Origin: Sphaerobacteraceae bacterium
GTDB lineage: Bacteria; Chloroflexota; Chloroflexia; Thermomicrobiales; Thermomicrobiaceae
Assembly: GCA_007695115.1 (NCBI GenBank)
Contig: REEK01000089.1
Coordinates: 1 to 40,440 of the forward strand
Direction: 5' to 3'
Length of the DNA stretch: 40,440 nt
Shown: positions 28,802 through 33,334 of the stretch, piece by piece
Layout of the letters: each line of letters starts with the position of its first letter
Numbering within the stretch: the first letter of the stretch is position 1
Made by a program: the position numbers and the translations under genes
The notes under the pieces: model-generated
The model's input: the letters and a program-made list of their open reading frames with translations, nothing else
The model's database searches: none
Told to the model about the DNA's origin: nothing

Positions 28802-30409
28802 GTGACAGAACGAATGCGTGGCGGAGTAGCCGCGGTAAAAACGCTCGAAGCGCTCGGCGTCGACACCGTGTTCGGAATTCCGGGAGTGCATACCCTCGAG
28901 ATCTATGACGCGCTCGTCGACTCGAAGATCAATCACATCCTGGCGCGTCACGAGCAGGGTGCCGGCTTCATGGCTGATGGCTACGCCCGTGCCTCCGGCA
29001 AACCGGGTGTTGCGGTGATCATCACCGGACCGGGCATTACGAATGTCGCGACACCGATCGGGGAGGCGTACACCGATTCCGTGCCGGTCTTTGTTCTCTC
29101 GTCCAACGTCGAGCGCAACTGGGCCGACCGAATGCTCGGCCACCTGCACGACCTCTCCGACCAGGTCGGCGTGATGGCCGCGGTAACCAAATGGAACGAT
29201 CGAGTCCTCGACGTCGCAGCAATCCCCGAGTCGATCGCGACCGCGTTCCAGAACATGACCTTCGGACGGCCACGTCCGACTCACGTGGAGATACCGATCG
29301 ATGTGCTCGCCGAGTTCGGCGACGTCTCTGTTGCTCCGGCCCCGCGCCTCAACTCGACAGCACCCGACCGGCTGTCTGTCGAAGCTGCTCTGGATCTGAT
29401 CGAGCGTTCAAGCAAGATCGTCATCTACTGTGGTGGTGGCGCGATCCACAACGGCGCCGGCGCATCGATTCAGGCTCTCACCGAGCAACTTGGTTCACCG
29501 GTGGTTACCTCCGCAATGGGGAAAGGCGCCGTCTCCGATCGCCATCCCTACGCGCTGGGTAACAACTGGGAGCGTGGCAACGCTGTCGATGACATGCTGA
29601 AGCAGGCCGACCTCGCTATCGTCTTCGGCAGCAAACTCGGAGCCCAGGAGACCGACTACCAGCGGATGCCGATGCCGGAGCGAATCATCAGAGTGGAAGT
29701 AGATCCCAACGAAGTTCTCCGCAACTACAAGCCAACGGTCCCCGTTGTCGCCGATAGTTCGGAAACCGCCAGCGCATTGCTCTCCGGGCTCAAGGAGCGC
29801 GGGATCAGCAAGCAATGCTGGCAAACGGGTGACGTTCAGGAGATCCGACAGCGTGCGCTGGAAACGTGCTGGGGAAGCAATCAGCAGCCGTATGTGGACG
29901 CGCTGCGAAACGCGATTCCAGACGACGGCATTCTGGTCAATGACATGACCATGATGTCGTATGTCAACAACCGTCGCTACCCCGTCTATGAACCGCGAAC
30001 CTATTTCTTCCCGTCCGGCTATGGAACGCTCGGATACGCGCTTCCGGCCGCAATCGGGGCCAAAGTTGCCTGCCCGGACAAGACGGTGGTGGCAATCATG
30101 GGAGATGGCGGCTTCCAGTACACGATGCAGGAACTGGCGACCGTCGCCCAGTTCAACATCAATCTGCCGATCGTGATCTTCAACGACTCAACCTACACCG
30201 CGGTCAAAGAGGAGCAGGCGGCAGAGCATGACCGCCGCTTCATTGCCGTTGATCTGAAGAACCCCGATTTTGTGGCACTGGCGAAATCGTATGGCATCGA
30301 GGCCGTTCGTGCGGAGTCGCCGGAAGCGCTGGGTGAAGCCCTCGAAGCCGCGAAACAGCGGAGCGGGCCAACGTTGATCGATACACCGATCGACGTCCAC
30401 TTCAATTAG
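28802..30409 (+). CDS. Thiamine diphosphate-dependent enzyme, AruI-like (5-guanidino-2-oxopentanoate decarboxylase type)
   Basis: A 535-residue enzyme of the acetolactate synthase/decarboxylase superfamily. The N-terminal pyrimidine-binding domain has GVDTVFGIPGVHTLEIYDAL and the catalytic Glu51 in RHEQGAGFMADGYARASG, followed by ITGPGITN. A central domain carries YCGGGAIHNGAG. The C-terminal domain has the ThDP motif GDGGFQYTMQELATVAQF starting near residue 434 and ending in IFND. The opening GVAAVKTLEALGVDTVFGIPGVHT resembles AruI of the arginine transamination route more than IlvB, and the enzyme has no regulatory subunit next to it. Other 2-oxo-acid substrates are possible. The GTG start at 28802 has GGAG upstream at about nine bases. 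The gene ends at a strong hairpin. Confidence 0.8.
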   Translation: MTERMRGGVAAVKTLEALGVDTVFGIPGVHTLEIYDALVDSKINHILARHEQGAGFMADGYARASGKPGVAVIITGPGITNVATPIGEAYTDSVPVFVLSSNVERNWADRMLGHLHDLSDQVGVMAAVTKWNDRVLDVAAIPESIATAFQNMTFGRPRPTHVEIPIDVLAEFGDVSVAPAPRLNSTAPDRLSVEAALDLIERSSKIVIYCGGGAIHNGAGASIQALTEQLGSPVVTSAMGKGAVSDRHPYALGNNWERGNAVDDMLKQADLAIVFGSKLGAQETDYQRMPMPERIIRVEVDPNEVLRNYKPTVPVVADSSETASALLSGLKERGISKQCWQTGDVQEIRQRALETCWGSNQQPYVDALRNAIPDDGILVNDMTMMSYVNNRRYPVYEPRTYFFPSGYGTLGYALPAAIGAKVACPDKTVVAIMGDGGFQYTMQELATVAQFNINLPIVIFNDSTYTAVKEEQAAEHDRRFIAVDLKNPDFVALAKSYGIEAVRAESPEALGEALEAAKQRSGPTLIDTPIDVHFN

Positions 30410-30423
30410 CAACCTCACGACCC

Positions 30424-30468
30424 GAGCCAGTGCCCGGGCGAGTATTCGACTCGCCCCGGCACTGGCTC
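30424..30468. terminator. Bidirectional terminator hairpin
   Basis: A 20-base arm beginning GAGCCAGTGCC (30424-30443) pairs with ACTCGCCCCGGCACTGGCTC (30449-30468) at 19 of 20 positions around ATTCG. It sits between convergent genes and overlaps the stop codon of the PLP enzyme. U-runs are lacking on both sides, so termination may be assisted. Confidence 0.7.
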
Positions 30469-31438
30469 AGGCATCGAGCGCCTGCCGAACCACCTTCTCG
30501 GCCGCATTTCCCCCGCTGATAACCACCCCGATCGGACCAGTTCCTGGCATCTCGATACCGTCCAGAATCGCCGCAATGGTCACCGATCCAGCGCCTTCCA
30601 GAATCATCCGTTCCGTGGTAATCCCAAATTTCATGGCACGGAGAATCGATGCCTCATCCACCAGGTCAATTCGTTCGACATGTTGCTGGATGATCTCGAA
30701 CGGTAGTCCGGAACGGGTCGCATTGCCCTCCAGTCCATCAGCAACCGTGCTTCCGCCGGAAACGCTGGTGATCTGGCCAGCTTCCAGCGAAACCTTCATC
30801 GCCGGCCATTCACTCGTCTGCACACCGATGACCGCCGCATCTGGGCTTACCGCATTCATGACAATCGCACAGCCGCTTATGAGCCCTCCGGAAGCGACCG
30901 GAGCCACCAGAACCTCCAGATCCGGAACATGCTTCAAAGCGTTGAGTGCACAGGTTCCGTGACCGGCAATGACATCCCGGTCGAATGCGTTGACGATCAT
31001 CAGGCCATGTTCCTCAGCGTACTGGTACATCCGGTCTTCGGCGTCGTCGAACCCTGAGCCCAGACGTAGACAAGTCGCCCCGAGATCTTCGAGAACACCG
31101 AGCTTCGCGCTGGAAACGCTCTCCGGAACAACGACCACCATCTCGATGCCAGTAAGTCCCGCGGCGACGGTCATGCCGATTGCATGATTCCCGGACGACG
31201 CGGTAACGACGGGAGAGCCATCGACCTGCGCGTGTAGCAGCATCCGATTCAACGCTCCGCGAAATTTGAACGATCCGGTTCGCTGGAGATTTTCCGGTAT
31301 CAGCCAGACATCGCGACCGGCGATCCGACTGAGCGCCGCACTCATTCTGGGAACCACCGGCCACAGCTCGTTTCGTATTCGCAAGTTTGCTTCGAGAACA
31401 TCCTGAATCGTTGGCTCACTCAGATCATTGACGGTCAA
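30467..31438 (-). CDS. Threonine dehydratase-like PLP enzyme (fold type II)
   Basis: The 323-residue product is a fold-type II PLP enzyme of the threonine/serine dehydratase and serine racemase group. The PLP lysine is Lys58 in RTGSFKFRGA; the cofactor phosphate and substrate loops are ASSGNHAIGM and APVASGGLISG, and ISGGNAAEK lies at the C-terminus. There is no ACT regulatory domain, so it resembles catabolic or short biosynthetic forms (TdcB, EutB, serine racemase) rather than long feedback-inhibited IlvA. It starts at TTG 31438, supported by AAAGGGG seven bases upstream. It is divergent from the cimA leader. Because threonine dehydratase and citramalate synthase are alternative sources of 2-oxobutanoate for isoleucine, the pairing is suggestive. 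Confidence 0.82.
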   Translation of the reverse strand: MTVNDLSEPTIQDVLEANLRIRNELWPVVPRMSAALSRIAGRDVWLIPENLQRTGSFKFRGALNRMLLHAQVDGSPVVTASSGNHAIGMTVAAGLTGIEMVVVVPESVSSAKLGVLEDLGATCLRLGSGFDDAEDRMYQYAEEHGLMIVNAFDRDVIAGHGTCALNALKHVPDLEVLVAPVASGGLISGCAIVMNAVSPDAAVIGVQTSEWPAMKVSLEAGQITSVSGGSTVADGLEGNATRSGLPFEIIQQHVERIDLVDEASILRAMKFGITTERMILEGAGSVTIAAILDGIEMPGTGPIGVVISGGNAAEKVVRQALDA

Positions 31439-31462: not shown

Positions 31463-31492
31463 TTGACGTTTCCTGACGCGAGACTCTACACT
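31463..31492 (+). promoter_or_regulatory. Promoter of the cimA leader
   Basis: TTGACG (31463-31468), an 18-bp spacer and TACACT (31487-31492). Transcription should start near 31499, about 235 nt before the cimA ATG. Confidence 0.7.
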
Positions 31493-31522
31493 GTTCTAAC
31501 GGAATTGTTGTCTGGAGCGATA

Positions 31523-31648
31523 ATGAGTCTAGGTTTCCACGCAGATTACACGATGATCGCCGGTCCCGACCGGCGCAACTGCTCCATTTTCATTATCGAG
31601 ATTACTGAGCCCCGCGTGACGGGGCAATTCGCGTTCGGGAGGCTCTAG
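31523..31648 (+). CDS. 41-residue leader peptide with an isoleucine cluster, upstream of cimA
   Basis: The ORF starts at ATG 31523, five bases after GGAG, and ends at TAG 31646-31648. Residues 22-27 read IFIIEI, four isoleucines in six codons (31586-31603), in an otherwise mixed peptide starting MSLGFHADYTMIAG. A GCCCCG/CGGGGC hairpin (31609-31625) lies just after the Ile codons. The last codons contain GGGAGGC, which is complementary to the first arm of the terminator 40 nt downstream. The arrangement is that of a classical amino-acid attenuation leader. Confidence 0.65.
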   Translation: MSLGFHADYTMIAGPDRRNCSIFIIEITEPRVTGQFAFGRL

Positions 31649-31709
31649 TACGACGGATTGAAAACCGGAATTTGACGAGTGATCAGTTGCCTCCCTCGGG
31701 AGGTTTTTT
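31609..31709 (+). promoter_or_regulatory. Isoleucine-type transcription attenuator of cimA
   Basis: The terminator is GCCTCC (31689-31694) with GGAGGT (31699-31704), a tetraloop CTCG and a six-T run (31704-31709). The alternative antiterminator is GGGAGGC (31637-31643) with GCCTCCC (31689-31695), a perfect 7-bp pairing that uses the same arm. A ribosome finishing the leader peptide would cover 31637-31643 and allow termination; one stalled at the Ile codons would leave it free and allow read-through. No T-box sequence is seen. Confidence 0.65.
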
Positions 31710-31732: not shown

Positions 31733-33334
31733 ATGTCACAACGGCAAGTCGCAATCTACGATACAACGCTCCGGGACGGAAGTCAGGGCCACGGGTTGTC
31801 CCTCACATCGCAGGACAAGCTCAAGATCGCCCGATCACTGGACAAACTCGGCGTCGCCTATATCGAAGGCGGATGGCCGGGATCTAATCCGAAGGATATC
31901 GAGTTTTTCGAGGTTGCGGCGAAGGAAGAGTGGACCAATGCACGTATCGCCGCCTTCGGGAGCACGCGTCGGGCCGGCGCTGTTGTCGAAGACGACGACA
32001 ACGTCCGGTTGCTGATCGAAGCCAACACCCCTACCGTTACGATCGTTGGCAAGGCATCCCGCTTCCAGGTAGATCGCGTGCTCGGCACCACCGCTGAAGA
32101 GAACGTCAGGATGGTTGCCGACACCGTCGAGTTCCTCAAGCGGCACGATCGCGAGGTCTTCTTCGACGCGGAGCACTTCTTCGACGGCTGGGATGACGAT
32201 CGCGACTACACACTGGCCGTTTGTCAGGCAGCTGCAGAAGCCGGGGCCGACGCGATCATCCTCTGCGACACCAACGGGGGAGCGATGCCCGCTCATGTGG
32301 CTGACGTTGTCCGGGAGATCAACGATCTCCTGCCGTGCCCAGTCGGTATTCACACGCACGACGACTGCGATCTGGCCCTGGCAAACGCGATCGCAGCGGT
32401 AGAGGCCGGTGCAATTCAGGTACAGGGCACGATCAACGGCTACGGTGAACGCGTCGGCAATGCCAACCTCTGCTCGGTGATCCCGGTCATCGAACACAAG
32501 ATGGGATACGACTGCCTCCCTCCCGGCAACCTGCAGAACCTGACCGACACGTCCCGGTATATCGCAGAAGTCGCCAATGTGGCACACGATACTCGCCTGC
32601 CGTTCGTCGGCATTCACGCCTTCACTCACAAAGCAGGATTGCACGTCAACGCGGTGGCCAAAGATCCGGTGGCCTACGAGCACATGGATCCGGAGATCGT
32701 CGGAAACCATCGCAACATCCTCGTCTCCGAGCTGAGCGGCCGCAGTAACATCGTCATGAAGGCGGAAACATTCGGCATCGACCTTCGTGAGCAACCCCAG
32801 GTTGTCTCCCGGCTGGTCAAGAAGATCAAAGAGCTGGAGCACCAGGGCTACTGGTTCGAAGACGCCGACGGCTCGCTGGAACTGCTGATTCGGCGCGAGA
32901 TGGAAGGGTATGTTGCCCCGTTCGAAGCGGTGGACTACACCGTGCTGGCGGAGTATCGCGGCAATCGCGGCATGCTGGCCGAGGCAATGGTGAAACTCGA
33001 CATTCACGGCACCAAGTACCACACAGCCGCCGATGGCAATGGCCCAGTCAATGCCCTCGATACTGCTACCCGAAAGGCTTTGCTGGAGTTCTACCCTCAG
33101 ATCGCGAATGTCGAGCTCGAAGACTACAAAGTTCGCGTGCTCGACGATCACCACGGCACCGGTGCGGTGGTCCGGGTCTGGATCCGTTCCGGGGATGGAA
33201 ACCGCTCATGGCAGACCGTCGGATCGTCGCCGAACGTGATCGCGGCGTCGTGGATGGCACTGGCCGACAGCCTGACCTACTCGCTGGTTGTCCCGGCCCG
33301 GGAGTCGGCACCCACCTCGGTGGTTGCTGACTAG
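31733..33334 (+). CDS. cimA: (R)-citramalate synthase
   Basis: CimA condenses pyruvate and acetyl-CoA to citramalate, the first step of the threonine-independent isoleucine route. The 533-residue product has the DRE-TIM metallolyase N-terminus (YDTTLRDGSQGHGLSLTSQDKLKIA), the IHTHDDCDLALANAIAAVEAG motif with metal-binding histidines, GTINGYGERVGNANL, and HKAGLHVNAVAK. The C-terminal LeuA-type allosteric domain (LDIHGTKYHTAADGNGPVNALDTATRKALLEF) is where isoleucine binds in the CimA family. Length and the GHG/GERVGNAN details fit the long CimA type (TIGR00977-like) rather than LeuA. ATG 31733 follows GAGAGGG; the frame runs on to 31679 through the terminator and is not used. It is controlled by the Ile-rich leader upstream. 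Confidence 0.92.
   Translation: MSQRQVAIYDTTLRDGSQGHGLSLTSQDKLKIARSLDKLGVAYIEGGWPGSNPKDIEFFEVAAKEEWTNARIAAFGSTRRAGAVVEDDDNVRLLIEANTPTVTIVGKASRFQVDRVLGTTAEENVRMVADTVEFLKRHDREVFFDAEHFFDGWDDDRDYTLAVCQAAAEAGADAIILCDTNGGAMPAHVADVVREINDLLPCPVGIHTHDDCDLALANAIAAVEAGAIQVQGTINGYGERVGNANLCSVIPVIEHKMGYDCLPPGNLQNLTDTSRYIAEVANVAHDTRLPFVGIHAFTHKAGLHVNAVAKDPVAYEHMDPEIVGNHRNILVSELSGRSNIVMKAETFGIDLREQPQVVSRLVKKIKELEHQGYWFEDADGSLELLIRREMEGYVAPFEAVDYTVLAEYRGNRGMLAEAMVKLDIHGTKYHTAADGNGPVNALDTATRKALLEFYPQIANVELEDYKVRVLDDHHGTGAVVRVWIRSGDGNRSWQTVGSSPNVIAASWMALADSLTYSLVVPARESAPTSVVAD

Follow-up and report, generated by a model that had tools for sequence, protein, structure and literature searches.

A candidate isoleucine-sensing leader-peptide attenuator upstream of citramalate synthase in the Thermomicrobiaceae

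Leader-peptide attenuators of branched-chain amino acid genes are known in Proteobacteria. In the ilvGMEDA, ilvBN, and leuABCD attenuators of E. coli and Salmonella, a promoter is followed by a short ORF that is rich in codons for the end product, the antiterminator and the terminator are mutually exclusive, and the stop codon of the ORF lies beside the antiterminator arm. The leader that we describe here, upstream of the citramalate synthase gene (cimA) of the Thermomicrobiaceae, shares these features, but it is found in a different phylum and its target is cimA. It also differs in that isoleucine is nearly its sole regulatory residue, and in that a separate hairpin (P1) lies between the isoleucine codons and the 5' arm of the antiterminator (seg2).

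In the Actinobacteria, attenuators of ilvB have been predicted in Corynebacterium, Mycobacterium, and Streptomyces (Seliverstov et al. 2005, PMC1262725). Like the cimA leader, these combine a candidate branched-chain leader peptide with a terminator before a pathway gene, but their target is ilvB, and the likeness is one of architecture. Their closer functional counterparts are the ilvB leaders of the Thermomicrobiaceae. In Staphylococcus aureus, a leucine-rich attenuator peptide of ilvD has genetic support (PMC5794164). This too is a leader-peptide attenuator of branched-chain synthesis, but it is rich in leucine codons and shares control of the whole ilv-leu operon with CodY. T-boxes (RF00230) sense tRNA charging and control a terminator, as we propose for the cimA leader, but they bind the tRNA directly, and the cimA leader does not match the T-box family. 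For the Chloroflexi, an early survey of T-boxes lists only isoleucine-tRNA ligase and trp genes (PMC2494555).

Our search of openly accessible full-text literature found no attenuator or T-box for cimA and no branched-chain leader-peptide attenuator in Chloroflexota. Within that literature, the remark in an earlier note on this DNA that no attenuator of cimA had been described in Chloroflexota holds. The mechanism would be classical ribosome-mediated attenuation, which is apparently new for cimA and for the Thermomicrobia; we therefore view this as a known mechanism on a new gene, not as a new mechanism.

We compared the genome that contains the window (the whole stretch of DNA that was analyzed, 40,440 nucleotides) with 60 relatives. 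In the NCBI taxonomy, the group is the family Thermomicrobiaceae of the class Thermomicrobia, phylum Thermomicrobiota; the corresponding phylum in GTDB is Chloroflexota. The identification of the gene downstream of the leader as citramalate synthase is borne out by its score of 678 bits against the curated equivalog model TIGR00977 (cut-off 450), and the protein is below the cut-offs of all of the 2-isopropylmalate synthase models. Divergent from the leader is a threonine ammonia-lyase-like gene (30467–31438, minus strand), which is below the curated cut-offs. Beyond it lies a gene for a ThDP enzyme in the acetolactate-synthase superfamily (28802–30409, plus strand), and in four relatives (G001, G007, G009, and G011) there is also a ThDP-enzyme match no more than a few kb upstream of cimA.

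Table 1. The cimA leader and its putative regulatory elements, in coordinates of the window.
Feature	Position	Strand	Basis
Sigma-70-type promoter, TTGACG-N18-TACACT	31463–31492	+	Consensus match 9/12
Shine-Dalgarno sequence of the leader ORF, GGAG	31514–31517	+	Sequence reading, family comparison
Leader peptide ORF, 41 codons, MSLGFHADYTMIAGPDRRNCSIFIIEITEPRVTGQFAFGRL, stop TAG	31523–31648	+	C-terminal half conserved in 15 genomes
Sensing cluster, ATT TTC ATT ATC GAG ATT	31586–31603	+	4 Ile in 6 codons
P1 hairpin, GCCCCG/CGGGGC, directly 3' of the Ile codons and within the ORF	31610–31626	+	
Putative antiterminator 5' arm (seg2), GGGAGGC, in the last codons of the leader ORF	31637–31643	+	
Shared arm, GCCTCCC; candidate partners 31637–31643 (antiterminator) or 31698–31704 (terminator)	31689–31695	+	
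Terminator 3' arm, GGGAGGT, and U-tract	31698–31709	+	
cimA, citramalate synthase, the putative controlled gene	31733–33334	+	TIGR00977

The earlier note had given the ribosome binding site, the 41-codon ORF, the isoleucine cluster, and the pairing arms, and the coordinates that it states are correct base by base. The start codon (ATG, 31523–31525) is spaced 5 nt from the GGAG, and the stop codon (TAG, 31646–31648) is 2 nt past GGGAGGC. The note's promoter is present, but it lies upstream of the interval to which it had been assigned, and transcription would be expected to start at about 31499. Also, the note's terminator stem is correctly placed (31689–31704), but the six T (31704–31709) do not all follow it: the seventh pair is a G-U pair that uses the first T, which leaves five T after the stem. 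Our scan of a 2-kb region found no terminator-like site other than this stem with its U-tract. Between the end of the hairpin core and the start of cimA there are 29 nt, and the Shine-Dalgarno sequence of cimA is left unpaired; this fits termination of transcription better than sequestration of that site.

We propose that the leader controls cimA by ribosome-mediated transcription attenuation, with charged tRNA-Ile as what is sensed (probability roughly 0.88). This proposal is based on features that can be read from the sequence: the parts of the leader, their order, their conservation in 15 genomes, and the match between codons and gene product across cimA, leuA, and ilvB. We infer that the leader RNA is made and translated, that ribosomes stall on it, that termination results, and that isoleucine is the signal. 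A ribosome would start the leader ORF on the nascent transcript. If Ile-tRNA is short, the ribosome would stall in the isoleucine cluster and hold P1 open, and GGGAGGC would be free to pair with GCCTCCC. This antiterminator would block the terminator, and cimA would be transcribed. With ample Ile-tRNA, the ribosome would reach the stop codon and cover GGGAGGC; GCCTCCC would then pair with GGGAGGT, and transcription would end at the U-tract before cimA. Most likely, the leader restricts the reading of cimA to times of isoleucine shortage.

On its own, the sequence of the window makes a modest case for an attenuator. Our scan found one promoter (0.6 expected from shuffled sequences) and one terminator (1.7 expected). 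The folding energy of the whole leader is ordinary (z = -1.37), and the 7-bp antiterminator was matched or bettered in 83 of 1,000 shuffled leaders. At least four isoleucines within 7 codons of a short frame occur in 1.3% of 260-nt pieces of DNA from this family. The fold of the single sequence is dominated by a 9-nt perfect complement (31519–31527 with 31590–31598), which we set aside because no counterpart was visible in the related genome G001. Because these single-sequence features are weak, we judged the claim by comparison with relatives.

Fifteen genomes of the family, including that of the window, contain cimA with a readable start, and all 15 have the same leader directly upstream of it. 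The order of parts is isoleucine codons, the GCCCCG/CGGGGC hairpin, GGGAG(G), and then the terminator. In every case, four or five isoleucines fall within 7 codons before an R/E-P-R motif (in the window's leader, a threonine codon, ACT, replaces one isoleucine codon of the usual set); GGGAG(G), the complement of the left arm of the terminator, lies 3–18 nt before the leader's stop codon, near enough to be reached by a ribosome at that codon; and the terminator stem lies between the leader ORF and cimA. A promoter of the form TTGACR-N17/18-TAnnCT is at the equivalent place in 14 of the 15 genomes. A start codon is found downstream of the promoter, with a recognizable Shine-Dalgarno sequence in most of the leaders, and cimA is preceded by a translatable short ORF. 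With 15 of 15 genomes carrying it, the leader is beyond what chance would give. The earlier note had staked its proposal on finding the isoleucine cluster and the alternative pairing in relatives, and both are conserved in all 15 genomes.

To describe the distribution of the leader, we used a covariance model (R1) that spans the isoleucine cluster to seg2, and we considered matches with E below 1e-8 to be strong. There were strong matches in 15 of 158 genomes of the class, all of them upstream of cimA, and none in the class outside the 15 family genomes; cimA itself is present in 84 genomes of the class. The leader of one genome (G003) was detected by R1 alone. This genome was absent from R1's training set, and its cimA is split across two contigs. 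Weak matches (L112–L117, E above 2e-3) were in unrelated contexts or in long coding frames, and we took them to be due to chance. We found no convincing isoleucine leader before cimA at 30 loci from other families of the same class. Among 79 loci from other groups there was also none, except for a possible case (L079) on the Verrucomicrobia contig JANYCC010000130.1, where a short ORF ending in ASFIIGKIIICGPHRSC and a strong terminator are upstream of cimA at 391. This is possibly an independent isoleucine leader; no clear antiterminator is visible by eye.

The pairing of P1 is strongly conserved: across 14 sequences, at the six always-paired positions (GCCCCG/CGGGGC), the only changes are to G-U. 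This hairpin also encodes the P-R part of the leader peptide. Several genomes have an antiterminator that is longer than the shared stem. In G001, it has 11 bp and extends outward (GGGAGGCATC/GATGCCTCCC), and 0 of 1,000 shuffles were as good. In one genus (g6), it has 11–13 bp and extends into the terminator loop, and 1–14 of 1,000 shuffles were as good. Of the antiterminator cells, 88.6% are paired, and two terminator pairs have changed on both sides. No antiterminator pair has done so, although the earlier note had expected compensatory changes there. Because the terminator fixes the shared arm and the coding frame fixes the other arm, little covariation of the antiterminator is possible, so we consider its lack to be neutral rather than contrary. 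In a partner-swap comparison of energies, the leaders' own pairs beat shuffles (114 of 20,000 as good), but we give this result little weight because the effect is asymmetric between genera.

We also folded the leaders with the ribosome represented by masking. For a ribosome stalled at the isoleucine codons, with the sequence masked to about 12 nt past the A site and before the right arm of the terminator is made, seg2 pairs with the left arm of the terminator with a predicted probability of 0.79–1.00 in 14 of the 15 leaders. The exception, G007, is weaker, with antiterminator pairing only when the stall is at one of the two upstream positions. For a ribosome at the stop codon, the terminator has a predicted probability of 0.82–1.00 in all 15. 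For the window's leader, these values are 0.98–1.00 (stalled) and 0.82 (at the stop codon). With the right arm present as well, the window still favors the antiterminator (0.78); several members of g6 no longer do, and in these the antiterminator would need to act kinetically. With no ribosome, the predicted default structure differs between genomes. Folding is in line with the switch described in the earlier note, with an alternative pairing that is allowed by a stalled ribosome and blocked by a ribosome at the stop codon. However, shuffled leaders also pair the C-rich terminator arm with upstream sequence often (mean probability 0.84, versus 0.98 for the real leaders), so the folding indicates compatibility with the switch and is not proof of it.

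Other leaders in the family have different codons in the sensing slot. The cimA leaders are almost purely isoleucine, while the leuA leaders have 2–7 leucines and 0–1 isoleucines at 15 of 16 loci (for example, AGLLRLSLSRPRGGATRRAGR and SLLQLSLSRPRRGA). The ilvB leaders have mixed runs of isoleucine, leucine, and valine in all 18 genomes of the family in which the start can be read; the ilvB leader of the window's genome has LTVVLSSLVLLVVRIIIGGRVAVGG. The loci upstream of ilvB (L118 and L175–L191) have long runs of these three residues, with a terminator of the GAGCCTCC type in those that were fully read. Across cimA, leuA, and ilvB, the residue in the putative sensing slot follows the gene product, and this match is the strongest argument that the charging of the cognate tRNA is read.

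The leaders favor ATT, which is the minor isoleucine codon of these GC-rich genes: ATT accounts for 50 of 70 isoleucine codons in the leaders, versus 55 of 323 in the CimA genes (Fisher p about 2e-18, with all members counted as independent despite their shared ancestry). This bias would fit a higher sensitivity to low Ile-tRNA, or a need to keep the stretch unpaired. Upstream of leuA, there is a T-box, then a leader peptide with leucine codons and the P1 hairpin, and then a second terminator (L158–L172), so the leuA mRNA apparently carries two leucine sensors in series. Rfam identifies the leuA T-box at four loci (L138, L139, L140, and L141; 103–116 bits).

Could the hairpin act instead on the translation of cimA or on RNA stability, with the same sensing, at least where a U-tract is absent? 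Just 3 of the 15 terminators (those of the window and of two genus mates) have a U-tract, and the other 12 lack one. But the start of cimA is mostly 20–40 nt past the hairpin core, with the Shine-Dalgarno sequence outside the hairpin (the choice of start is uncertain in G011, G007, and G017), and the window and its genus mates do have a U-tract. Also, the leuA T-box terminators from the genera that lack a U-tract at cimA have none either, and those from the window's genus have one; this pattern in attenuator and T-box terminators covers the loci L138–L174 and L004–L015. The missing U-tract is therefore a trait of the lineage that does not count against the cimA leader, and we consider an effect on translation or stability to be unlikely. 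We think it very unlikely that the peptide itself (IIxIIRPRVAG) arrests the ribosome, as TnaC does, with free isoleucine or another effector, and not uncharged tRNA-Ile, as the cause of the stall. The residues after the isoleucine run (RPRVAG..ALGR) are conserved in most members, but they are encoded by P1 and seg2, so RNA pairing explains their conservation. Some members have E for R, S for P, or Q for V and still retain the P1 pairing, and the leuA leader has RPR too, but preceded by leucines.

Harder still to credit is a translation-independent riboswitch or T-box-like RNA that binds a ligand or tRNA directly, with an incidental ORF. In favor of this reading, the cimA leader does have structure, and leuA in this family carries a T-box. 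But a search of Rfam found no match to the cimA leader up to E = 5, neither to the T-box family, for which the leuA loci served as the positive control, nor to the amino acid leader families (Leu, Thr, His, and Trp leaders). Strong conservation at the RNA level is confined to P1, seg2, and the terminator, and the promoter, the reading frame, and the isoleucine codons are retained across members. Finally, if one looks at the window by itself, neither the pairing nor the isoleucine cluster is more than mildly unusual, as if an ordinary terminator or pause hairpin happened to follow a spurious ORF. Given the conservation in 15 of 15 genomes and an amino acid identity that tracks the gene in three operons, the probability of such a coincidence is negligible.

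If the cimA leader is an attenuator that responds to charged tRNA-Ile, then leader-peptide attenuation extends, in the deep-branching Thermomicrobia, to the enzyme through which pyruvate enters isoleucine synthesis, citramalate synthase. We tentatively speculate, at somewhat less than even odds, that the cimA and leuA leaders are paralogs derived from a single attenuator cassette, made up of sensing codons, a GGCCCCGC..GGGGC hairpin that codes for RPR, seg2, and a terminator. The leucine/isoleucine slot would have been recoded (in either direction), so that each branch has its own sensor and ilvB responds to all three amino acids; the leuA copy would sit behind a T-box. The leuA arrangement, a T-box followed by a leader-peptide attenuator, would stack two sensors of tRNA charging on one mRNA. 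Within one family, the codons show a clean division of labor, with isoleucine at cimA, leucine at leuA, and a mixture at ilvB, and this split across three operons offers a simple way, set up by nature, to test how specific attenuation is for the codons.
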